A stretch of DNA of 64,000 nucleotides, taken from assembly GCF_014203735.1 (NCBI RefSeq), contig NZ_JACHJQ010000005.1, positions 62,001 to 126,000 of the forward strand, read 5' to 3'. This DNA comes from Actinophytocola algeriensis (GTDB lineage Bacteria; Actinomycetota; Actinomycetes; Mycobacteriales; Pseudonocardiaceae). Position 1 is the first letter of the stretch. Every line of letters begins with the position of its first letter. Below the pieces are notes generated by a model. The model saw only the letters and a program-made list of their open reading frames with translations, was not told the origin of the DNA and searched no databases. The position numbers and the translations under genes were made by a program. Of this stretch, positions 4,040-27,662 are shown piece after piece.

Positions 4040-4110
4040 TCCACTTGTCATCTGCAGCCGATGGCCTTGGTATCCGGCTCCGTTCCGTCCGCAGTTATTC
4101 GGGAGACGAC

Positions 4111-7100
4111 ATGATGCAACCTCAGCGTAACGAGCGCACCGGCAACCTCCCCGTGGCGATTGTCGGTGTCGCGTGCCGCCTCCCAGGCGCGCCTAACGTG
4201 CAAGAGTTCTGGAAGCTACTGACCGCCGCCCGTCACACGATCGCCGAACCCTCGCCGGAAAGGCGTAGAACATTTCTTGGACAAATTCCAGAACGTGGCG
4301 GGTTCCTCGACAGTATAGACAGTTTCGACGCGTCGTTCTTCGGTTTATCGCCGTTCGAGGCGCTCCGGATCGACCCGCATCACCGGCTCATGCTGGAAAC
4401 CGTGTGGGAGGCATTGGAGGACGCAGGCCTGCCGCCGGACCAGCTGGCCGGAAGCCGGACCGGCGTGTATACGAGCTGGTTTGGCGGGCATTACTGGCAG
4501 CTGTTGCACGAGGCCGGCGTGAGTGACGTACACGCCTACCTGGGCTCGCACCGGTCGTCGGCACCCGCCGGGCGGATCGCTCACCTGCTCGACCTCCGGG
4601 GTCCGGCGATGGGGACCGAGGCGCACTGCGCGTCGTCGCTGGTCGCCGTGCACCACGCGCGCCGGGCGTTGGAGGCGGGGGAGATCGAGATGGCCATCGT
4701 CGGGGGAGTGAACCTGCTGTTACGCCCGGACGAGCGCGCCGGTCTTGCCGACGCGGGCATCATCTCGCCGACCTACCGCAGCCGTTTCGGCGATGAGGAC
4801 GCGGACGGGTACGTACCGGCCGAGGGCGCGGTCACCCTCATCCTCAAGCCGCTCGACGACGCGATCGCCGCGGGCGACCCGGTCTACGCCACGATCCTCG
4901 GCAGCGGTGTGTGCAGCAACGGCAGGCAGGCGCTGTCCGCCAGTTCGACCGGCGTCGCCGGTCAGGAGGACCTGCTGCGCATGACCCTGCGGGAGGCGGG
5001 TCTGTCGCCCGCCGACATCGACTACGTGGAGGCGCACGGCCCAGGAACGGCACAAGGCGACGTCGTCGAGCTCACGGCGCTCGGCAACGTCCTCGGTGAG
5101 GGGCGCGAGGCCGGCCGGCCCTGCCTGGTCGGCTCGGTCAAGTCGAACATCGGCCACGCCGAGGCCGCCGCCGGGATGGCCGGGTTGCTGAAGACCGCGC
5201 TGGCCCTGCGGTACCGCACCATCCCCGCGACACTGCACGTGCGTCAGCCCATCTCCCTCCTCGCCGCGGACGACGCGCCGATCGAGCTCGCCCGGTACAC
5301 CCAGGCGTGGCCCGACCGGGGGGTGCCTGCCGTTGCCGGGGTCACCGCACTGGGCATGTTCGGGATCGGCGCGCACGTCATCCTTGGCGAAGCCCCACCG
5401 GTCACGCCGCCGTCCCGCCCCGCCGTCGACCGGGCCATGCTGCTCCCACTGTCGGCGGAGGATCCCGCGGCGCTCGCCGGGCTGGCGTCGGCCTACGCGG
5501 ACACCCTTGCCATGGCGCGAAACCCGGAGGACGTCTGCTACAGCGCAGGCGCCCACCGCACCCACCTGTCGCACCGCGTCGCCGTCGCCGCCGCCGACCG
5601 GCGCACGCTGGTCGAGAGGCTGCGCAGGCTGGCCGACCGGCGGCGCATTGGCGAGGTGGCAGGCAAGCCGGCGCGGGTGGTGTTCGTGTTCTCCGGGCAG
5701 GGCTCGCAGTGGCACGGCATGGCGCGGGAGTTGCTCGAGACCGAGCCGGTCTTCGCGCGGTCCATGCGGGAGTGCGACGAGCTGATCCGAGCGGAAGGCG
5801 GCTGGTCGCTGCTCGACCTGCTGGCCGGTGAGACGCCCATGACCGGCGACGACCGGGTCCAGCCTGCCCTGTGGGCGATCCAGGTCGGCCTGGCGAGGAT
5901 GTGGCGGCACTGGGGGATCGAGCCCGATCTGGTCATCGGGCACAGCATGGGCGAGATCGCGGCGGCGACCACCGCGGGAGCGCTGACGCCCCGGGACGGC
6001 GCCGCGGTGATCTGCCGGCGCAGCGTGCTGGTCGGCACCCTGCGGGAGCCGGGCGCGATGGTGGCGGTCGCGATCGGTGAGCACGAGGCGAACGAAGCGA
6101 TCGGCGAGTACGCCGACCAGGTGAGCGTGGCAGTGGTGAACAGCGGCTGGTCCACCGTGCTGGCCGGTACCCAGGACGCCGTCGACACCGTCGTCGCGCC
6201 GCTGCGCGAGCGCGGCGTGCACTGCAGGCCGGTCCGGACCAACTACGCGTCGCACTCGCCCAACGTCGAGCCGCTTCGCGATGGTCTGGTCAGTGCGCTC
6301 GCCGACGTGTGCCCTCGGGCGGGCGACGTGCCGATGCACTCGACCGCGCTGGACCGCGAGGTACGTGGTGACGAGCTCGACGCCCAGTACTGGATGTCGA
6401 ACCTGCGGGAGCCCGTGCGCTTCGCCTCAGCGGTGCGCGCCGTCCTCGCCGACGAGGTGCCGACGCTGTTCGTCGAGATGAGCCCGCATCCGTTGCTGGT
6501 CCCGGCGATCGACGACGAGATCGCCGCGTGCGAGGCCGACTTCGCGACGGCCGTGCCGTCGCTGGTCCGCGATGTGCCGGCCGGCGAGTCGATGCGGGTC
6601 GCGCTGGGCGCCGCCTACGAGCGGGGCCGGGTGCCGGACTGGAGCCGCCTGTACGACAGTGGTCAGAGGGTCTCGCTGCCGACCTACCCATGGCAGCGCA
6701 CGCGGTTCTGGTTCAGCCCGCCTGCGCAGGCGCCGGTTCGCCAGGTCCAATCGCCTCCGCCGCCCCAGGAGCCGCCGCCCCAGGAGCCGCCGACCCTGGT
6801 GCCGCCGACCCTGGTGCCGCCGACCCTGGTGGCACCGGCGCTGGTGGCACCGGCGCTGGCCGAGCAGATCGCGTCCCGGGCGGCCGAGATCCTCGCGGCG
6901 CCGATCGATTCGATCGACACCGCTGCTCCGCTCCATGTCGCCGGCATGGACTCGGTGCTGGCCGCCAGGCTGTGCCTGCGGCTGAAGCAGGAGCTGGACC
7001 TGCGTGTGCCCTACGCCGACCTCATCGAGGACCGGTCCCTGCTCGAGGTCGCCGAAGAACTGTGCGGTAAGGCCGCGCGAGCCGAGTCGGCCGAGCTGGC

Positions 7101-7122
7101 GGACCTGAGCCTGGCCCACTGA
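4111..7122 (+). CDS. Type I polyketide synthase, single module KS-AT-ACP
   Basis: 1003 residues from the ATG at 4111, which follows GGGAGA. The ketosynthase (about 12-425) has Cys173, His309 and His349. The acyltransferase (about 545-835) has GQGSQWHG and GHSMG with Ser612, and the YASH motif at 712-715, which in characterised ATs goes with methylmalonyl-CoA. The post-AT linker YPWQRTRFW is present. A Pro-rich repeated linker precedes an ACP with GMDS, Ser948 being the phosphopantetheine site. There are no KR, DH, ER or TE domains. The KS is unusual: the nucleophile sits in EAHCASSL instead of the standard TACSSSL, HGTGT is HGPGT, and the C-terminal GGTNAH is GIGAH. It could be an iterative or single-extension enzyme. 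Confidence 0.93.
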   Translation: MMQPQRNERTGNLPVAIVGVACRLPGAPNVQEFWKLLTAARHTIAEPSPERRRTFLGQIPERGGFLDSIDSFDASFFGLSPFEALRIDPHHRLMLETVWEALEDAGLPPDQLAGSRTGVYTSWFGGHYWQLLHEAGVSDVHAYLGSHRSSAPAGRIAHLLDLRGPAMGTEAHCASSLVAVHHARRALEAGEIEMAIVGGVNLLLRPDERAGLADAGIISPTYRSRFGDEDADGYVPAEGAVTLILKPLDDAIAAGDPVYATILGSGVCSNGRQALSASSTGVAGQEDLLRMTLREAGLSPADIDYVEAHGPGTAQGDVVELTALGNVLGEGREAGRPCLVGSVKSNIGHAEAAAGMAGLLKTALALRYRTIPATLHVRQPISLLAADDAPIELARYTQAWPDRGVPAVAGVTALGMFGIGAHVILGEAPPVTPPSRPAVDRAMLLPLSAEDPAALAGLASAYADTLAMARNPEDVCYSAGAHRTHLSHRVAVAAADRRTLVERLRRLADRRRIGEVAGKPARVVFVFSGQGSQWHGMARELLETEPVFARSMRECDELIRAEGGWSLLDLLAGETPMTGDDRVQPALWAIQVGLARMWRHWGIEPDLVIGHSMGEIAAATTAGALTPRDGAAVICRRSVLVGTLREPGAMVAVAIGEHEANEAIGEYADQVSVAVVNSGWSTVLAGTQDAVDTVVAPLRERGVHCRPVRTNYASHSPNVEPLRDGLVSALADVCPRAGDVPMHSTALDREVRGDELDAQYWMSNLREPVRFASAVRAVLADEVPTLFVEMSPHPLLVPAIDDEIAACEADFATAVPSLVRDVPAGESMRVALGAAYERGRVPDWSRLYDSGQRVSLPTYPWQRTRFWFSPPAQAPVRQVQSPPPPQEPPPQEPPTLVPPTLVPPTLVAPALVAPALAEQIASRAAEILAAPIDSIDTAAPLHVAGMDSVLAARLCLRLKQELDLRVPYADLIEDRSLLEVAEELCGKAARAESAELADLSLAH
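6757..6856 (+). repeat. In-frame Pro-rich microrepeats in the PKS linker
   Basis: Between AT and ACP, 15-base units recur: CCGCCGCCCCAGGAG twice, CCGCCGACCCTGGTG three times, then GCACCGGCGCTGGTG twice. They encode PPQEP, PPTLV and APALV units. They form a flexible linker and look like recent slippage expansion, so copy number may differ between strains. Confidence 0.85.
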
Positions 7123-8695: not shown

Positions 8696-8890
8696 GCCGC
8701 CACCTCCAACAGTGAAGAGATCTGACTTTTACCGTCGGTGCCGGAGCGCTGCCGGGTCAATCGCCAACTGACTAAGTGTGGTGATCACGCAGAAGCTGGT
8801 ACTTCGAGTACCCCCACAACCACGTTCTGGGTACTTGCCGCCCGCCGGGTGATGGTTGATCCGCACGGAACGAACGGGCGGAGGAACCGC

Positions 8891-9919
8891 ATGGTCGGCA
8901 TGATCGCAGCCGCGGCAGGCGGCACGTTGCTCGCGGCCTGCTGGCTGAGCGTGGCACGCGCGGTCTTCACACAGGGCCAGGAGCCGCCGCGTGCGGCGAG
9001 GTGGAGCATTCGTCTGACGGCTGGGGCGCTCACCCCGGTCGCGGTGCGGCTCGGGGCCGCGCGACGGGAACGGCTGCTGGCGCTGTGCGCGCCACTGGCC
9101 CTGTTCCTCATGTTCGCCGCCTGGTTCACCGGCGGCACGACGGGTTTCGTGCTGCTCGCGGTGGCGGCGGAGGTGATCCGCCCGGAGGCCGGGGACATCG
9201 GCGCCATGCTCGCGTTCGAGCTGGCAGGCCCGGCGCGGCTGTACGCCATCGCGGCCGCGGTGTCCGGTGCGCTGCTCGTCGGCGTGTTCGCGGTGTACGT
9301 GGCCAGGATCGCGGCCGCCCACGGCCGCCGGGAGGCGCTCGTCGCACGGCTGTCGGCCCACGCGAGGGAGCCCTCCGACGCCGAGCGGGTGATCGCCACC
9401 TACGTCCGGTCCGACTCCCGCGCCCAGCTCGACACCTGGTACGGCGAGTGGGCGGCCTGGCTCTCCGACGTGCGCTGCACGCACGGCGGCCACCCGTCGC
9501 TCGTGTACTTCCGGTCGTCGGGCCCGCTGTCGTGGCTGGAGGCCGCGGTGATCGCGCTGGACGCGGCCGCGCTGGTCGAGGCCACCGCGCCGGACTGGGC
9601 CCCGCCGAACACGCAGGTGCTGCTGGAGACGGGCGCCGGCTGCCTGCAGCGGATCGCGGCGGGCATGGGCATCGCCGTCCCCCGGTCGGTGGTCAGCCTG
9701 CACGGCCGTGAGCAGCGCGGGTTCGCCGACACGATCGAAACGACCCTGTTCGCCGGTCTTCCGGTGGCACGCACGGAACGTTTGGCATGGGAGGTCTTCC
9801 AGCAGGAGCGCACCAGGTACGCGCCGTACGCGGCGGCAGTCGCCGCGCGGCTTCAGTACGGGCCGGACGCCGGCGGGACAGCTGCGGTGATCACGGCGGA
9901 GCAGAGTGGGGGACGGTAA
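8891..9919 (+). CDS. Membrane protein of unknown function (paralogue A)
   Basis: 342 residues from the ATG at 8891, which follows GGAGGAACC. About three hydrophobic segments are visible in the first half (around residues 3-25, 58-85 and 105-130), then a soluble domain. I do not recognise the family. It is clearly related to the protein at 22517-23488: both share CAPLAL, a W..WL.D.R.TH.G.P segment, VVSL.GRE.R.F and RTRYAPY. Its stop is two bases before the start of the DDE-protein gene, so the two are probably one operon together with the histidine kinase. Confidence 0.8.
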   Translation: MVGMIAAAAGGTLLAACWLSVARAVFTQGQEPPRAARWSIRLTAGALTPVAVRLGAARRERLLALCAPLALFLMFAAWFTGGTTGFVLLAVAAEVIRPEAGDIGAMLAFELAGPARLYAIAAAVSGALLVGVFAVYVARIAAAHGRREALVARLSAHAREPSDAERVIATYVRSDSRAQLDTWYGEWAAWLSDVRCTHGGHPSLVYFRSSGPLSWLEAAVIALDAAALVEATAPDWAPPNTQVLLETGAGCLQRIAAGMGIAVPRSVVSLHGREQRGFADTIETTLFAGLPVARTERLAWEVFQQERTRYAPYAAAVAARLQYGPDAGGTAAVITAEQSGGR

Positions 9920-9921
9920 CG

Positions 9922-11127
9922 ATGACCATCGGTCTCGACACGATTTCCGTGAGGAACGAGTCCACGAACCTGGCCGGGTTCTGCCGGGACAGGCTGTCGC
10001 CGCTGGCCAGGTCCGACCAGCGCAGGTGGGGCGAGGTGTACGTGCGCGGGCTGGTCACCGTGCCCGGTCGCAAGTCCATCCGGCGCATCTGCGACACCGT
10101 GGTCGGCGCCCGCGCCGACCAGTGCCTGCAGCAGTTCGTCAACCAGAGCACCTGGCAGTGGGAACCGGTCCGGCGCAACCTCGCCGAGCACGTCACCGCC
10201 GAGATCGCGCCGAGGGCGTGGGTGGTGCGCGACGCCGTGTTCCCGAAGAACGGCGCGAACTCGGTCGGCGTCGCCAGCCGGTACGTGTCCGCGGCCGGGC
10301 GCACGCTCAACTGCCAGGTCGGTCTCACGGTGATGCTCGCTGGCGACTCGGCGGGCGTCCCGGTGAACTGGCGGCTGCTGTTACCCCGGTGCTGGGACGA
10401 CGACGAGCGCCGCCGCGACCGCGCGCACGTGCCGCCGACGCAACGGCACCGCCCGCGCTGGCAGGTCATGATCGAGGCGGTCGAGGAGATGCGGCACGGC
10501 TGGGGTCTCGCCCCGGCACCGGTGATCGCGGACGTCGCCGACCAGCAGGACGTCGAGCCGCTGCTGCGGGCCCTCGAGGAACGCGGCCTCGGCTACCTGC
10601 TGCGGGTCGGGCAGCACGTGCCCGCGTGGTCGTCCCGCGTCGGCAACAACCGGGTGCTCACCGTCGGCGAGCTGGCGCTCCTGGCCGTGCGCCCGGCGGC
10701 GAGGACCCTGAACTGGCAGATCCGCACCGAGGCACGCGCGGCCGCCACCCGGTTCGTCGCCTCGCCCGTGCCGTGCGAGGCGGACGCGCCGCGGCTGGGC
10801 CACAACGTGCGGCTGGTCCGCCGGTTCCAGCCGGCCCGCCACCTGCTCGCCCAGTGGACGGTCGGGCGGAACCGGCCGAGGGCGACCTGGCTGACCAACC
10901 TCAACGTCGCGCGGCTGCCGCAGCTGATCGACCTGGTGAAGCTCGACGGGGTGGCGGCCGAGCACCTCGGGCGCATGCAGGACGACGTCGGCCTGCGGCA
11001 CTTCGAGGGCCGCTCGTACCGCGGCTGGCACCACCACGTCACCCTCGCCTCCATCGCCTACGCCTACCGCCTCGGGCGGGAGATGGAAGAGAGCCGGGAA
11101 GACCTGCGGATCCGACCTTATGTCTAG
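9922..11127 (+). CDS. IS701-like DDE protein, probably not an active transposase
   Basis: 401 residues. The fold and motifs are those of IS701-type DDE enzymes: VVRDAVFPKNG (residues 101-111), VIADVADQQD with Asp204, and FEGRSYRGWHHH with Glu362. In active relatives, as I recall them, the first motif reads like IDETGFPKKG; here the position of the first Asp looks like Arg103. No terminal inverted repeats or target duplications were found. The gene sits two bases after a membrane-protein gene and overlaps a histidine kinase gene by eight bases, so it behaves like an operon member. A domesticated regulator or DNA-binding role is an inference. Confidence 0.8.
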   Translation: MTIGLDTISVRNESTNLAGFCRDRLSPLARSDQRRWGEVYVRGLVTVPGRKSIRRICDTVVGARADQCLQQFVNQSTWQWEPVRRNLAEHVTAEIAPRAWVVRDAVFPKNGANSVGVASRYVSAAGRTLNCQVGLTVMLAGDSAGVPVNWRLLLPRCWDDDERRRDRAHVPPTQRHRPRWQVMIEAVEEMRHGWGLAPAPVIADVADQQDVEPLLRALEERGLGYLLRVGQHVPAWSSRVGNNRVLTVGELALLAVRPAARTLNWQIRTEARAAATRFVASPVPCEADAPRLGHNVRLVRRFQPARHLLAQWTVGRNRPRATWLTNLNVARLPQLIDLVKLDGVAAEHLGRMQDDVGLRHFEGRSYRGWHHHVTLASIAYAYRLGREMEESREDLRIRPYV

Positions 11128-12571
11128 AACCCGCGACCGGACGGTCGAGGCGCTGCGGCGGATCGAGCTGTTCGCCGGGCTCACGGACGACGAGCTCGGC
11201 TGGCTCGCCGACGCCGGGAAGCCGGTCACCCTCGCCGACGGCGAGATCCTGTTCGAGGACGGGCAGCAGGCCGAGTACTTCTACGTGCTGCTGACGGGCG
11301 AGCTGCTGATCAGCAAGCTCGTCGGCGGGTGGGTCGAGGTCGTCGGCAGGCACTCGGCGGACGCGGCCGAGGCCGTGCCGAGCGCGGCGACACCGGGCGC
11401 GGAGCCCGAGAAACCGGTCGCCGCGCACCAGTTCACCGGCGAGCTGCCGATGCTCGCCGGCGGCGGCTACGTCGCGCGGGGCACCGCCGTCGGCCGCACC
11501 GAACTGCTGGCCTACGACCAGGAGACGTTCCTGGAGATGATCGTCCGCTGCCCGCGGGTGTGCCGGGTGCTGCTGCCGGTGCTGGCGTGGCGGATCCGGT
11601 CCTACGAGCTGCAGGCGGGCAGGCGGGCCCTGCTCGACGGGCTCAGTGTGCTGGCCGCGGGGCTGGCGCACGAGCTGAACAACCCGACCGCCGCGCTCGT
11701 GCGGGCGGCGCGGGAGCTGGGTGAGTCGGTGCGTGCGCTCACCGGGTCGGCCGTCCGGTGGGGCAGGCTCGCCGCCGACGGCGAGGGCGCCCGGATCGAC
11801 GAGCTGGCGGCGCGGATCCGCGCCAGGACCGGCCCCCGCGACCCGTTCGAGGCGGACCGGACCATGGACGCGCTCGCGGACGAGCTGGCGTCACACGGGG
11901 TGCCGGGGGCGGACGAGCTGGCCGCGGTCCTCGCCGAGGGCGGCGTCGAACCCGGCGACCTCGCCGGGTTCGCCTGCCACGTGCGGGAGTGCGCACTGCC
12001 CGCCGCCGTCGGCTGGCTGGCGCACGTGCTGCGCGCCGAGGCGCTCGTCGCCGACGTGGCGGAGACGAGCGGGCGGATCGCGATGCTGGTGCGGGACACC
12101 AAGTCGTACAGTGACCTGGACCGCGCGCCGCAGCGTGCGGTCGACCTGACCGAGGGCCTCGACGCGACGCTCGCCATGTACGCGGCGCGGCTCGACGGCG
12201 TCCGCGTGTGCCGCGACTACGCACCGGACCTGCCGCCGGTGACCGTGTACCCGAGCGAGCTGAACCAGGTGTGGGCCAACCTGGTCGACAACGCGATCGA
12301 CGCGATGGGCGGCGAGGGGGTGCTGAGCATCCGGACCCGGCGCGAGGACCGGTACGCCGTCGTGGAGATCCGCGACGACGGCCCGGGGATCCCGGCCGCC
12401 ACGATCGATATGCTGTTCCAGCCCTTCTTCACCACCAAGGACATCGGCAAGGGCACCGGGCTGGGGCTGCATCTGAGCCACGGCATCGTGACCACCCGGC
12501 ACCGGGGTTCGATCAGCGTGACGTCCGTGCCCGGCGACACCTGCTTCACCGTGTGCCTGCCGGCTGAGTGA
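11120..12571 (+). CDS. Sensor histidine kinase with cyclic-nucleotide-binding-type domain
   Basis: 483 residues. Residues about 15-150 resemble a cNMP-binding (CAP_ED) domain, with LFAGLTDDELGWLA at the start and a short low-complexity insertion near residues 78-95. The phosphoacceptor box is AGLAHELNNP with His184. The ATPase boxes are clear: NLVDNAIDAM, DDGPGIP, FQPFFTTK and GKGTGLGL. No membrane segment is seen, so it should be soluble. No response regulator lies next to it. It overlaps the DDE-protein gene by eight bases, which suggests coupled translation. Confidence 0.9.
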   Translation: MSRTRDRTVEALRRIELFAGLTDDELGWLADAGKPVTLADGEILFEDGQQAEYFYVLLTGELLISKLVGGWVEVVGRHSADAAEAVPSAATPGAEPEKPVAAHQFTGELPMLAGGGYVARGTAVGRTELLAYDQETFLEMIVRCPRVCRVLLPVLAWRIRSYELQAGRRALLDGLSVLAAGLAHELNNPTAALVRAARELGESVRALTGSAVRWGRLAADGEGARIDELAARIRARTGPRDPFEADRTMDALADELASHGVPGADELAAVLAEGGVEPGDLAGFACHVRECALPAAVGWLAHVLRAEALVADVAETSGRIAMLVRDTKSYSDLDRAPQRAVDLTEGLDATLAMYAARLDGVRVCRDYAPDLPPVTVYPSELNQVWANLVDNAIDAMGGEGVLSIRTRREDRYAVVEIRDDGPGIPAATIDMLFQPFFTTKDIGKGTGLGLHLSHGIVTTRHRGSISVTSVPGDTCFTVCLPAE

Positions 12572-12629
12572 TCACCAGTACCGCTGGACGTATGATCGGT
12601 TACCCAGGCCTGGCGATGGAGCGAGCGAC

Positions 12630-13721
12630 GTGACCGACCTTCTGTCTGCCGTGGACGAAGTGGGTACGCCGGCCTATGTCTACGACCTCGCCGAGATCCG
12701 CGTCAGCAGGCAGCGGCTCCGGGCCGTGCTGCCGGGCCGCACCGGCCTGTACTACTCGCTGACGGCCAACCCGCATCCCGAGCTGCTGCGCGAGATCCGC
12801 GCAGGCGACGTGCTGCCCGCGGTGCGCTCGCCCGGTGAGCTGGACGCCGCGCTCGTCGCGGGCTGGGCGGCGCGGGACGTCCTCTACTCGGGCCCGGCCC
12901 GGCGGGACACCGACCTGGACTGGGCGCTGCGGCTCGGGGTGCGGACCTTCACGGTGGACTCGGAAGCGGCGCTGGACCAGCTGTCCCGCCGCGCCGCCGG
13001 GCACCGGGAACCGGTGGACTGCCTGCTGCGGGTGAACACCTCCGCGCTCGCCAGGGCAGGCGCGGACCCGGACTTCGTGCTGTCGCAGCCGGCCGGGTTC
13101 GCCGGTGGCGGGGCCGCGCGGGTCGTCGGGCTGCACGTGTGCACGGACTCCGATGTGGACAGTACGGCCGAACTGGCGGGCCGGCTGGTCGCGGCGCTCG
13201 CCGGGCACGGGGTGGTGGTCGAGCGGATCGGTTTCACCGGTGCCGCACCGGGCCTGGCGGAACGGTTCATGACCCGGTCCCAGGTTTCGTTCGAAGTGGA
13301 CAGTGAGCTGGTCGGGGTGGCCGGCACGCTCGTCACGGCCGTGCTCGACGTCCGGGTCGCGGCCGGGCAGCAGGTGGTGGTGCTGGAGTCCGGCGCGAAC
13401 CACGCCGGCCTGTTCGCGGGCAGGCGCCGCAGATCGCTCTCGCCGCGGCTGGTCTCCCGGGCACCGAGGGGCGGACTCGTCGACACCGTCCTGTTCGGTC
13501 CGCAGGAGATCCCGCTCGACGTGTGGGCGCCCTCGGTGCGGCTGCCCCGGTTGCGGCCGGGCGACGTGCTGGCCGTGCCGGACACCGGCGCCTGGGGTGT
13601 GACGGCGGGCCTGGTCGCGTTCGGTGCGCCCGACATGCCGGCGGAGGTGGTGATCGACCGCGACGACCCGGACGCGGACGTCGTGCACGTCTCCCGCCTC
13701 TCGGTGACGAGGTATCCGTAG
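12630..13721 (+). CDS. PLP-decarboxylase-fold protein lacking lysine
   Basis: 363 residues with the layout of fold-type III decarboxylases (LysA/ornithine decarboxylase): the N-terminal TPAYVYDL, YSLTANPHPELL, SPGELDAAL, GLHVC, and a C-terminal barrel with GDVLAVPDTGAWG. The segment that normally reads Y-A-L-K-A-N and holds the PLP lysine is YSLTAN, with Thr45. The whole predicted protein contains no lysine at all. The usual Cys of the C-terminal GPxCxSxD motif also appears as Gln (GPQEIPLD). It therefore cannot be a standard PLP enzyme. The GTG start follows GGAG. It opens the biosynthetic operon. Confidence 0.85.
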   Translation: MTDLLSAVDEVGTPAYVYDLAEIRVSRQRLRAVLPGRTGLYYSLTANPHPELLREIRAGDVLPAVRSPGELDAALVAGWAARDVLYSGPARRDTDLDWALRLGVRTFTVDSEAALDQLSRRAAGHREPVDCLLRVNTSALARAGADPDFVLSQPAGFAGGGAARVVGLHVCTDSDVDSTAELAGRLVAALAGHGVVVERIGFTGAAPGLAERFMTRSQVSFEVDSELVGVAGTLVTAVLDVRVAAGQQVVVLESGANHAGLFAGRRRRSLSPRLVSRAPRGGLVDTVLFGPQEIPLDVWAPSVRLPRLRPGDVLAVPDTGAWGVTAGLVAFGAPDMPAEVVIDRDDPDADVVHVSRLSVTRYP

Positions 13722-19480: not shown

Positions 19481-20190
19481 CCCTCACCCAGGAGGTGCTC
19501 CGCCACCAGGTGGCCGACCGGATCCGGGCCGCCCGGCCGGACCTCGGGGGCGGGGAGATCTCCCTGCCCGGCATGCGGGCCGAGGTGGCGGCGCCCACCG
19601 AGTCCGGGACGGCGGTCGTGTGCGTGCTGCGACGGCTCGACCTGCCCACGTTCATCGCGGGCACGTGCGCGTTCGCCGCCGCCCTGCCCGCCGAGCGGGT
19701 CGCGGACTGGCGCCGCGCGTTCACCAGGACGATCTTCCTGGCGGGCAACCCCGGCAACCTGCGTGACCGGTTCTCCTTCCACCACGCCGATCCGGGCGGC
19801 ACGATCGCGTGGACCGCGCCCGCGACGCTGCGCGAGCACGCCCCGCTGCGCAGGCTGCTGCGGCTGTTCGACGGCGGGGGCGCGCTGCCGCCCGCGGTGG
19901 CGGTGCGGGTGCCGGGACCGGACGTCCGGCCCTCGGCGCACCCCGCCGGGCACGACCTGTACCTCGCGAGCACCGGCGTCACGGTCGGCGAGAGCCTGGT
20001 GCACCTCGGGCACCTGCTGGCGGAGGCGGTGTTCGACGGGCTGATCGCGGGGGGCGACCGGCTGGCCGTGTGGCCGGTGCCCTGCCTCGTCGGGCTGACC
20101 GGTCCGTACGAGGCACTGCGGGTCGGCGCGGACCCGCACGACCCGGACCGGCTGCGTGCGTACGCCGCGCTCGTCAGGAGCGGGTCGTGA
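19477..20190 (+). CDS. Protein of unknown family, AfsA-like or DUF6182-like at best
   Basis: 237 residues, no recognised catalytic motif. Visible features are RLDLPTFIAGTCAFAAALP around residues 50-68, FLAGNPGNLRDRFSFHH near 90, and VTVGESLVHLGHLLAEAVFDGL near 170. No signal peptide or membrane helix is apparent. The start is a GTG overlapping the previous stop (GTGA), and the end overlaps the next GTG in the same way. DUF6182 is a guess from memory of cluster gene neighbourhoods, not a search result. Confidence 0.65.
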   Translation: MTLTQEVLRHQVADRIRAARPDLGGGEISLPGMRAEVAAPTESGTAVVCVLRRLDLPTFIAGTCAFAAALPAERVADWRRAFTRTIFLAGNPGNLRDRFSFHHADPGGTIAWTAPATLREHAPLRRLLRLFDGGGALPPAVAVRVPGPDVRPSAHPAGHDLYLASTGVTVGESLVHLGHLLAEAVFDGLIAGGDRLAVWPVPCLVGLTGPYEALRVGADPHDPDRLRAYAALVRSGS

Positions 20191-20810
20191 CGGCCCCGCC
20201 GATCCGGTTCGGTTACCACGGCTCGCTGCGGGCGGCGCACGCGATCGTGGCGGACGCGGGACACCCGGTCGAGCGGTTCTCCTTCGCCGAGTACGACATC
20301 ACCGCCCCGTTCCGGGCGCTGCGCGACGGCGACCTCGACCTGATGATCGTCAAGTTCGGGCGCTCCGAGCCGGACCTGGCGTACAGCGCCACCGTCGCCA
20401 CCGAGGACCGCGTCGCCCTGCTCGGCGCGCACCACCCGCTCGCGGGCCGGACCTCGGTCAGCGTCGAGGAACTCGCCGACTACGAGGCCTTCCGCTGCCC
20501 CGGCACGTTCCCGCTCGACGTCTGGGACGAGGTGGTGCCGCCGCGTACCCCGGCCGGGCGGCCGATCCGCCGCCGCCACGAGCTGACCGGCACCGGCACG
20601 GTGATGGCGACGGTCACGCGGACTGACGCGGTGCACCTGTCGCTGCGCTCGCTCGCCGACGTCGCGTCGGCCGCGGTGCGCGTCGTCGGGGTCCACGACC
20701 TGCCACCGGCGCCGGTGCGGCTCGCCCGGCGCCGCGGCCACACACCGGACCACGTCATGGAGTTCGTCCGCGACGCCGAGGCGGCCGCGGTGCGGAGGGA
20801 GGCGTCGTGA
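20187..20810 (+). CDS. Free LysR-type effector-binding domain (no HTH)
   Basis: 207 residues. The protein begins IRFGYHGSLRAAHAI, like the first strand of a LysR substrate-binding domain, and contains the domain's middle segments FRALRDGDLDLMIVKFG and RVALLGAHHPLAGR. The roughly 85-residue N-terminal winged helix of LysR regulators is absent, and nothing upstream in any frame supplies it because the previous gene ends in a GTGA overlap. It may be a ligand-binding partner of another regulator, or an enzyme derived from a periplasmic-binding fold. Confidence 0.75.
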   Translation: MTAPPIRFGYHGSLRAAHAIVADAGHPVERFSFAEYDITAPFRALRDGDLDLMIVKFGRSEPDLAYSATVATEDRVALLGAHHPLAGRTSVSVEELADYEAFRCPGTFPLDVWDEVVPPRTPAGRPIRRRHELTGTGTVMATVTRTDAVHLSLRSLADVASAAVRVVGVHDLPPAPVRLARRRGHTPDHVMEFVRDAEAAAVRREAS

Positions 20811-22516: not shown

Positions 22517-23488
22517 GTGATCGACGTGATCGCACTCGGTTGTGGCGCCGCGCTGGCTGTGACGGCCTGGCTGTCCGTGCTGCGCACCGTGTTCGTCCCG
22601 CGCTCGCGCTCGTCGCTGCTGATGCGCACCGTCGTCGGCGGTACGTGGTGGCTGGGGTCCCGGGCGGCGCACCGGCTGCCGAGGGCCACCGGCGAGAAGG
22701 TGATGGAGCTGTGCGCGCCCCTCGCGCTGTACGTGGCCGCGGCGTGCTGGCTGGCCGCCACACTCGGCGGGTTCGCGCTGATGGCGCCCGTGCTCGCCGG
22801 GGTGCCGCACACGTGGGACGGCCTTTCCGGGTTCCTGCTGCTGCGCACCGGAAGCCTGCTCGCGGTCGGCGCGTGGGTGTCGGTGGCGCTGGTGCTGATG
22901 TCGTTCGTCCTGCACCTGTTCCGGGTCACCTCGGCGTACAGCCGTCGCGAGCTGGTGGTGGCGCGGATGTCGATCCGGGCCGCCACGGCCACGGAGGCCG
23001 AGCAGATCCTGGCGGAACACCTGCGGCTCGGCTCCCGCGACCACCTCGACGGGCTGTTCGCGCGGTGGACCGAGTGGCTGGCCGACATCCGCGCCACCCA
23101 CACCGGCTACCCGGCGCTCACCATCTACCGCCCGGCCACCGACCTGTGCTGGCTGGACGCCGCGGTGCTGGTCCTCGACGCGGCCGCGCTCACCGAGGCG
23201 GTCGCGCCGCAGTGGGCGCCGCCCAGTGCCCGGTCGGTGCTGGAGGCGGGGGCGGAGTGCTTTCCCGCGCTCGCGCGGCAGGTGGGGCTGCGCCTGCCGC
23301 GTCCCGTGGTGAGTCTGGAGGGCCGGGAGGAGCGTGATTTCGACCTGACGTTGAAGGTCGCTGTCGACGCCGGGTTGCCGCAGGAACACGACGCGCTGGA
23401 GGCGTGGCCGGTGTTCCAGGACTGGCGGACCCGGTACGCGCCGTACGTGATGGCGATGAATCTGCGGCTGTGCTACTCCGTGCCCTGA
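22517..23488 (+). CDS. Membrane protein of unknown function (paralogue B)
   Basis: 323 residues, GTG start. Hydrophobic segments lie at about residues 2-27, 57-82 and 108-137, followed by a soluble region. It matches the protein at 8891-9919 in order and spacing of motifs: CAPLAL, ARWTEWLADIRATHTGYP, PVVSLEGREERDF and RTRYAPY. Family not recognised. It lies 100 bases after the methyltransferase gene and so may belong to the operon or be separate. The pair of paralogues brackets the packed operon, which suggests a duplication or a shared role such as sensing or export. Confidence 0.8.
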   Translation: MIDVIALGCGAALAVTAWLSVLRTVFVPRSRSSLLMRTVVGGTWWLGSRAAHRLPRATGEKVMELCAPLALYVAAACWLAATLGGFALMAPVLAGVPHTWDGLSGFLLLRTGSLLAVGAWVSVALVLMSFVLHLFRVTSAYSRRELVVARMSIRAATATEAEQILAEHLRLGSRDHLDGLFARWTEWLADIRATHTGYPALTIYRPATDLCWLDAAVLVLDAAALTEAVAPQWAPPSARSVLEAGAECFPALARQVGLRLPRPVVSLEGREERDFDLTLKVAVDAGLPQEHDALEAWPVFQDWRTRYAPYVMAMNLRLCYSVP

Positions 23489-26417: not shown

Positions 26418-27662
26418 ATGACGATTGCCAGTTGGCCGAAGGAGGCCGTGGCCGGCCGGGAACGAGAACGTCCCGTCGTGCCACGCCGTGGCGCGGCCGC
26501 CATCGTGGCGTTCGTGGCGGTCCTGCTGCCCGCCGCGTCGACGGTCCCGTCCCCGATCTACGTGGTGTACCAGCGGGAGTGGCAGTTCCCCGACTCGATG
26601 ATCACCGTCGTGTTCGGGGTGTACTGCCTGTCGGTCCTGGTGAGCATGCTGCTGTTCGGCTCGCTGTCCGACCTGGCCGGGCGCCGTCCGGTGATCCTGC
26701 TCGCGGTCGCCGCGGTGGCACTCGCGACCGTCGTCTTCCTGTTCGCGGAAGGACTTCCGTGGCTGGTCGCCGCGCGCGTGGTGCAGGGGTTCGGCGGCGG
26801 CATCGGGGCGAGCGCGCTCGCGGCCGCACTGCTCGAGCTGGCGCCGGCGGGTGCGCGGTGGCGGGGTGCGCTGAACGGCAGCGTCACGCCCGTCATCGGG
26901 ATCGGTGCCGGCGCGCTCGGTTCCGGGATGCTGGTCGAGTACGGGCCCTCGCCGACCCGGCTGCCCTACGTGATCCTGCTCGTGCTGCTCGTCGTCGCCG
27001 CGGCCGGCATCGCGCTCGTCCCGGAGACCGCACCCTGCGGCGCCGGCGCGAGCTGCCGGTTCACGTTGGCGCCACGGCGGATCCACGTGCCGGCGCCCGC
27101 CCGGCGCGCGTTCGCGGTGCTGTCGTCGGCGATCGTGGCGGTGTGGGCGGTCGGCGGGCTCTACATGGCACTGGGACCGTCGGTCGCGGTGGCGGTGCTG
27201 GGCAGTGAGAGCCAGGCGCTCGGCGGCACGGTCATCGCGGTACTCGCGGGCAGCGCGGCGGTGGCGCAGGTGAGCTGCCGCCGGGTGGCGCCGCGGCCCC
27301 AGCTCACGGCAGGCGCGGCGGCGCAACTGGCCGGGCTCGTCGGCGTGCAGGCGTCCCTGCTGGCCGGCTCGCAGTCCGCGTTCCTGCTCGGCACGGTGGT
27401 GCTGGGCTTCGGCTGGGGCTGCTCGAACATGGCGGCGTTCCGGCTCGCCAGCGCCCTCGCGACACCGGAGCGGCTCGGCGAGGTCGTCGCGGCCATCAAC
27501 ATCGTCGCCTACCTCGGCACGGTCGTGCCGACCGTGGCGGCGGGGATCGCCACCACGCAGATCGGCCTGCTCGGCGCGACCGCCCTGCTGATCGCCCTGG
27601 TCGGCTCGCTCGTGCTGGCGTCCGTCGCGGGACTGCGGTACCTCCCCGCCTCGGCACAGTAG
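26418..27662 (+). CDS. MFS transporter
   Basis: 414 residues with twelve apparent hydrophobic segments. The MFS motif A between helices 2 and 3 is GSLSDLAGRRPVIL. The N-terminus PSPIYVVYQ and the helix-4 segment RVVQGFGGGIGASAL are typical of drug-efflux-type MFS proteins. The ATG follows CAGGGGG. It is 68 bases after the ThDP enzyme and is probably cotranscribed in part, so it may export the product made in this region. Confidence 0.88.
   Translation: MTIASWPKEAVAGRERERPVVPRRGAAAIVAFVAVLLPAASTVPSPIYVVYQREWQFPDSMITVVFGVYCLSVLVSMLLFGSLSDLAGRRPVILLAVAAVALATVVFLFAEGLPWLVAARVVQGFGGGIGASALAAALLELAPAGARWRGALNGSVTPVIGIGAGALGSGMLVEYGPSPTRLPYVILLVLLVVAAAGIALVPETAPCGAGASCRFTLAPRRIHVPAPARRAFAVLSSAIVAVWAVGGLYMALGPSVAVAVLGSESQALGGTVIAVLAGSAAVAQVSCRRVAPRPQLTAGAAAQLAGLVGVQASLLAGSQSAFLLGTVVLGFGWGCSNMAAFRLASALATPERLGEVVAAINIVAYLGTVVPTVAAGIATTQIGLLGATALLIALVGSLVLASVAGLRYLPASAQ

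Follow-up and report, generated by a model that had tools for sequence, protein, structure and literature searches.

A probable conserved pseudoenzyme related to BtrK-type aminoacyl-ACP decarboxylases in an Actinophytocola algeriensis signalling locus

The window, by which we mean the whole stretch of 64,000 nucleotides of Actinophytocola algeriensis DNA that was analysed, carries a gene for a protein of the PLP-dependent decarboxylase fold whose catalytic centre has been lost. The gene and its surroundings comprise the following features.

9922..11127, + strand: IS701-like protein (NF033540), the gene overlapping the kinase gene, with the first catalytic Asp replaced
11120..12571, + strand: histidine kinase with a cyclic-nucleotide-binding domain (PF00027 and PF02518), 58 bp upstream of the pseudoenzyme gene
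12613..12629, + strand: start region with a Shine-Dalgarno-like GGAG before the GTG, conserved in genomes G338 and G374
12630..13721, + strand: putative lysine-free pseudoenzyme of the BtrK-type decarboxylase family, GTG start, 363 amino acids, Pfam PF02784/PF00278
13794..22416, + strand: nine-gene GH3 cassette between the pseudoenzyme gene and gene 22559, outside the conserved operon
22559..23488, + strand: putative membrane protein without a Pfam family, directly following the pseudoenzyme in G338 and G374

Orthologues of the pseudoenzyme were found in G338 (69% identical) and G374 (72%), both from another genus of the same family (Pseudonocardiaceae), and with the window's own copy these are exactly three genes among 390 family genomes. 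A search at E 1e-45 among 395 genomes of the class returned no orthologue besides the window's own, and no relatives of the product were found in viral contigs. About 20 kb in G338 and G374 are collinear with positions 1714-31120 of the window at 66-91% identity, except for a PKS gene (49%), and in both genomes the gene order is IS701-like gene, cNMP-domain histidine kinase, pseudoenzyme and membrane protein. In the three genomes 49-58 bp separate the kinase gene from the pseudoenzyme gene (58 bp in the window, about 50 bp in the other two), and a scan of this gap for promoters and terminators, which covered sigma-70-type patterns only, found nothing.

The first-pass annotation had described the product as a 363-residue protein without any lysine, and the composition of the open reading frame, read from its GTG start, confirmed this (0 of 363 residues). 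On its own, the absence of lysine is an unremarkable composition effect. Lysine makes up 1.3% of residues in the host lineage (GC 70-75%), about 2% of the proteins of 300-450 amino acids encoded at the fetched loci lack it (4 of 183), and the active relatives of the product have just 3-10 lysines each, of which several are invariant. Nor is such an absence rare in the window, since gene 26505-27659 encodes a second lysine-free protein (385 amino acids as called). Both orthologues carry one aligned lysine outside the active site, at position 273, where the window's product has Arg, so that "no lysine at all" describes composition only and the conserved trait is the loss of the active site. A migrated PLP lysine was also considered and rejected, as no position is Lys in all three proteins and 273 is the only one at which the two orthologues share a Lys.

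Both Pfam domains of the product belong to the PLP-dependent ornithine/DAP/arginine decarboxylases (PF02784, E 9e-11; PF00278, E 2e-8). The match to the LysA model TIGR01048 (90.2 bits) lies below the curated cut-off of 297.9, and that to the NCBIfam model dCO2ase_PEP1 is weak (100.7 bits against a cut-off of 478). The best sequence match in the PDB is BtrK (E 1.6e-18). Alignment with fold-type III enzymes and structure prediction yielded a fold-type III TIM barrel plus a beta-sheet domain; the AlphaFold2 model (pLDDT 88.3, pTM 0.87) indicates compatibility with this fold rather than proof of it, because active relatives were in its alignment, and for the same reason it may hide local unfolding around deletions. 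Structure comparison of the model with LysA and BtrK structures gave Z values of 34-36 over about 350 residues (34.0 over 356 residues for BtrK 7ru7). Set against the model of an active relative, the product's model has a shortened helix ahead of the GGG position and lacks most of the segment that follows. The earlier assignment to the LysA/ornithine-decarboxylase type is thus upheld for the fold by the PDB match, the model and the Z values, but the nearest kin are BtrK-type aminoacyl-ACP decarboxylases and not LysA or ODC, and the sequence relationships show descent from within the BtrK-type group.

This ancestry is mirrored in the surroundings of the nearest active relative, L040 of genome G254, whose gene lies between one for an AMP-binding ligase and one for an 84-amino-acid protein with a carrier-type GLDSMQS motif, after which acyl-CoA dehydrogenase genes follow. 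BtrK and VinO have the same arrangement of ligase, decarboxylase and carrier. Genes for an AMP-ligase and a carrier protein are absent beside the pseudoenzyme in the window, G338 and G374. BtrK, the L-glutamyl-[BtrI ACP] decarboxylase (PDB 2J66, 7RU7), shares the fold and is closest in sequence in the PDB; it has the PLP lysine, whereas the pseudoenzyme has lost the PLP centre and part of the barrel and has no ligase or ACP gene alongside. VinO, a PLP-dependent enzyme acting on an aminoacyl-ACP substrate, decarboxylates 3-methylaspartyl-VinL in vicenistatin biosynthesis (PMC11284099). By this description VinO is a functional analogue, and the ligase/ACP arrangement at L040 follows the same logic; the pseudoenzyme differs in having neither such partner genes nor the catalytic residues.

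The loss of the catalytic centre was followed residue by residue against 34 aligned near relatives, which gave 78 near-invariant columns. The altered segments are the following.

12762..12764, + strand: codon 45, the PLP-lysine position, now ACG (Thr), with Ser in both orthologues (alignments)
13026..13070, + strand: segment GLxMTGVxSQFG of the relatives, deleted or altered (alignment and column comparison)
13221..13280, + strand: glycine-rich phosphate loop in degraded form (GFTGAAP where the relatives have LGGGFxAP); the helix after it is mostly deleted
13293..13307, + strand: EVDSE (222-226) in place of ESGRY (column comparison)
13497..13514, + strand: GPQEIP (290-295) in place of GPLCTP, with Cys293 to Glu and Leu292 to Gln fixed in the three orthologues
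13587..13598, + strand: GAWG (320-323) in place of GAYG, with Tyr322 to Trp fixed in the three orthologues

All 34 near relatives keep Lys45, Cys293, Tyr322, the GGG loop and ESGR (including G224 and R225), and five more distant aligned relatives keep the PLP lysine, too. Whereas 51 of the 78 columns, mostly structural ones, are kept, 23 are lost in all three clade members, among them the PLP lysine, the GGG loop, the Gly of ESGR, the catalytic Cys and the active-site Tyr. Residue 45 lies in YSLTANPHP, which aligns with YLSLKAN of BtrK and YSLKANPHP of the relatives, bearing out the previous identification of Thr45 as the PLP-lysine position. The catalytic Cys position had been read as Gln; it is in fact Glu293, the Gln being residue 292, where the relatives have the invariant Leu of GPLCTP next to the Cys. 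In addition, GPGK of the relatives reads GPAR, and tens of residues are missing through in-frame deletions. Because the columns concerned are conserved in 34 of 34 near relatives and the loss is common to three species, the loss of the catalytic set is far beyond chance. A lysine aldimine cannot form in this product, in line with the original view. Homologues in the same gene context that keep the PLP lysine were looked for, and the two in that context (G338 and G374) lack it, in contrast to the near relatives. The same substitutions and deletions in these two independent genomes refute a sequencing or assembly error or a frameshift, an explanation in favour of which no point was found and to which we assign a negligible probability.

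A protein that has lost the aldimine might nevertheless store, deliver or sense PLP by binding it non-covalently, in the manner of a PLP homeostasis protein. Glu222, which corresponds to the residue that partners the pyridine nitrogen in ODC, is retained together with several barrel residues. The phosphate side argues otherwise: the GGG loop is deleted, Gly224 is Asp in all three proteins, Arg225 is lost in two of three (S/S/R across the clade), Tyr322 is Trp, and most phosphate contacts are gone, making PLP binding very improbable. The PLP homeostasis protein YggS/PLPHP, which is of fold-type III and apparently has no catalytic activity (PMC9601805), differs further in that it binds PLP through lysines, of which the product has none.

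In the tree, the three pseudoenzymes form one clade (support 100/100) nested within active enzymes, with L040 as its neighbour (96/84). The stem of the clade is long (0.87 changes per site; the sister has 0.27), and the branches afterwards are much shorter. Besides the gene context and the active-site losses, the G338 and G374 orthologues share the new residues E293, W322, D224 and Q292; these and A64, R91, R242 and G327 are uniform across the clade and absent from the active relatives. Pairwise dN/dS is 0.38-0.42 by NG86 and 0.11-0.15 by YN00 for two pairs, which is within the range of neighbouring genes (e.g. 0.34-0.45 for an ATPase gene), and substitutions fall mainly at third codon positions (p about 1e-5 or lower). 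The dN/dS values and the codon-position bias indicate that purifying selection maintains the gene; its rate of evolution exceeds that of most neighbouring genes. A pseudogene is not supported by dN/dS, the codon-position bias or the intact frames. We likewise consider it quite unlikely that the gene is functionless and decaying, at a stage before frameshifts appear. Such a history would fit the long stem, the deletions, the rate of evolution and the occurrence in 3 of 390 family genomes, but the gene is intact in three species down to 69% identity with dN/dS well below 1, the new residues are shared, and the start and ribosome-binding site are conserved.

As three species from two genera keep the gene intact and have lost the same residues, the product is probably a binding or regulatory protein and not an enzyme. 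We give a probability of roughly 60% to the reading that it is a conserved pseudoenzyme whose fold now serves, without catalysis, as a binding or regulatory partner. The protein descends from aminoacyl-ACP decarboxylases of BtrK type, which have PLP bound to a lysine; the whole PLP centre was lost in the ancestor of the three genes, now found in two genera of a single family, and the gene has afterwards been kept intact under purifying selection while new residues became fixed in the old pocket. What remains would be a PLP-free TIM-barrel plus beta-sheet fold that does not decarboxylate and works by binding. Selection and gene context suggest that it most likely serves as a regulatory or scaffold partner of the operon products, namely the IS701-like protein, the cNMP-domain histidine kinase and the membrane protein, and the remodelled pocket may hold a small ligand non-covalently.

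Alternatives to this mechanism, from the more to the less probable, are a PLP-free reaction of a new kind, a role as dead subunit or regulator of an active paralogue, decay, and non-covalent PLP binding. A PLP-free enzyme, with the pocket rebuilt around Glu293, Trp322, Asp224 and Gln292 as a catalytic or ligand site, would account for new residues that are identical in three orthologues and never occur in active relatives, and for the maintenance of the protein by selection. We nonetheless regard it as unlikely: the linkage of the gene is with signalling genes and not with a dedicated pathway, the deletions take away parts of the barrel around the pocket, and we know of no fold-type III decarboxylase relative that works without PLP.

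Fold-type III decarboxylases are dimers with shared active sites, and the product might accordingly be a dead subunit that tunes an active paralogue, like the trypanosomatid prozyme, or titrates the regulator of one, as antizyme inhibitor does for ODC. A potential target exists in LysA, the one strong LysA-family match in the host genome (470.9 bits), but lysA is on another contig, no BtrK-type active paralogue was found in the host genome, and none of the three genomes has a co-localised active partner; this reading, too, has a low probability. It has precedents in antizyme inhibitor, an ODC homologue of animals without decarboxylase activity (PMC3084279), and in the dead paralogues that activate enzymes in trypanosomatids, e.g. 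that of deoxyhypusine synthase (PMC3663545). Antizyme inhibitor (PDB 3BTN) is non-catalytic and of the same fold class, with Z 32 against the pseudoenzyme model, but it is eukaryotic, derived from ODC and binds antizyme, whereas the pseudoenzyme is bacterial and derives from ACP-linked decarboxylases.

Returning to the reading as a reused, non-catalytic partner, we consider the protein a conserved bacterial pseudoenzyme and not a new class of system. Conserved dead members of PLP-enzyme families are rarely described in bacteria; a search of the literature for a dead decarboxylase of the ACP-linked branch found no report, which is weak evidence of absence. The gene offers a compact test case for the passage of an enzyme fold to non-catalytic use, in that the class of the ancestor is known, close relatives stand on either side of the stem, a small number of new residues has become fixed, and candidate partners can be read off the operon. 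An automatic pipeline would wrongly label the product a decarboxylase.

The locus of the kinase, the IS701-like gene, the membrane protein, an MmyB-type regulator and a KS-AT-ACP PKS is present in nine further genomes, all of which lack the pseudoenzyme gene and have unrelated genes instead (SAM synthetase, LysR regulator, pentapeptide protein). The pseudoenzyme is hence not core to the kinase system but a lineage-specific addition to a conserved signalling/PKS locus. As to anti-phage defence, PADLOC returned no match for six genes. The gene following the kinase is that for SAM synthetase in three genomes from a different genus (L097:10837-12021, L098:10953-12143 and L096:7950-9140), with a gap of about 55 bp in two of them.

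The IS701-like protein is encoded directly upstream of the kinase in 12 genomes (in two with one gene between), with homologues in L072, L108 and L095-L103, and the host genome has no IS701-type match other than the product of 9922-11127. With two IS701 transposases as references, the first catalytic Asp (VVDETG in real IS701) was found to be Arg, Glu, Gln or Thr in the proteins compared, and because of this replacement the protein looks like a domesticated, nuclease-dead transposase. A speculative extension, to which we attach a small probability, is that of a signalling operon in which two retired enzymes, the Asp-less transposase and the PLP-less decarboxylase, would serve as non-catalytic parts beside the cNMP-domain kinase, with the decarboxylase pocket as ligand sensor.

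The membrane proteins 8738-9919 and 22559-23488, at the two ends of the operon, are paralogous (42% identical over 308 amino acids). G338 and G374 have only the second (the 22559 type) in the compared stretch, and in other genomes a single copy precedes the IS701-like gene. The KS-AT-ACP PKS 4045-7122, with EAHCASSL as its KS motif, is 49% identical to its counterparts in G338 and G374, against 66-91% for most flanking genes, which suggests gene replacement or rapid divergence.

A functional link between the pseudoenzyme and the GH3 cassette was rejected as ancestral. The cassette is absent at the pseudoenzyme site in G338 and G374 and forms a separate block in G270, G195, G319 and G182, so that a later insertion is the simplest account of it, rather than a partner set. 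Its genes encode a P-loop protein, a GH3 acyl-amido synthetase-like protein, an LCM methyltransferase, an FAD enzyme, a protein without Pfam match, a DUF6182 protein, a LysR substrate-binding domain, an alpha/beta hydrolase and a methyltransferase. Copies lie in unrelated surroundings in the four other genomes (L073, L074, L075 and L077, part in L076), with no called copy of the P-loop gene in G319. The LysR-type substrate-binding domain without a DNA-binding domain (20187-20810) is conserved within the cassette. The cassette is mobile-looking and possibly a candidate uncharacterised biosynthetic cluster.
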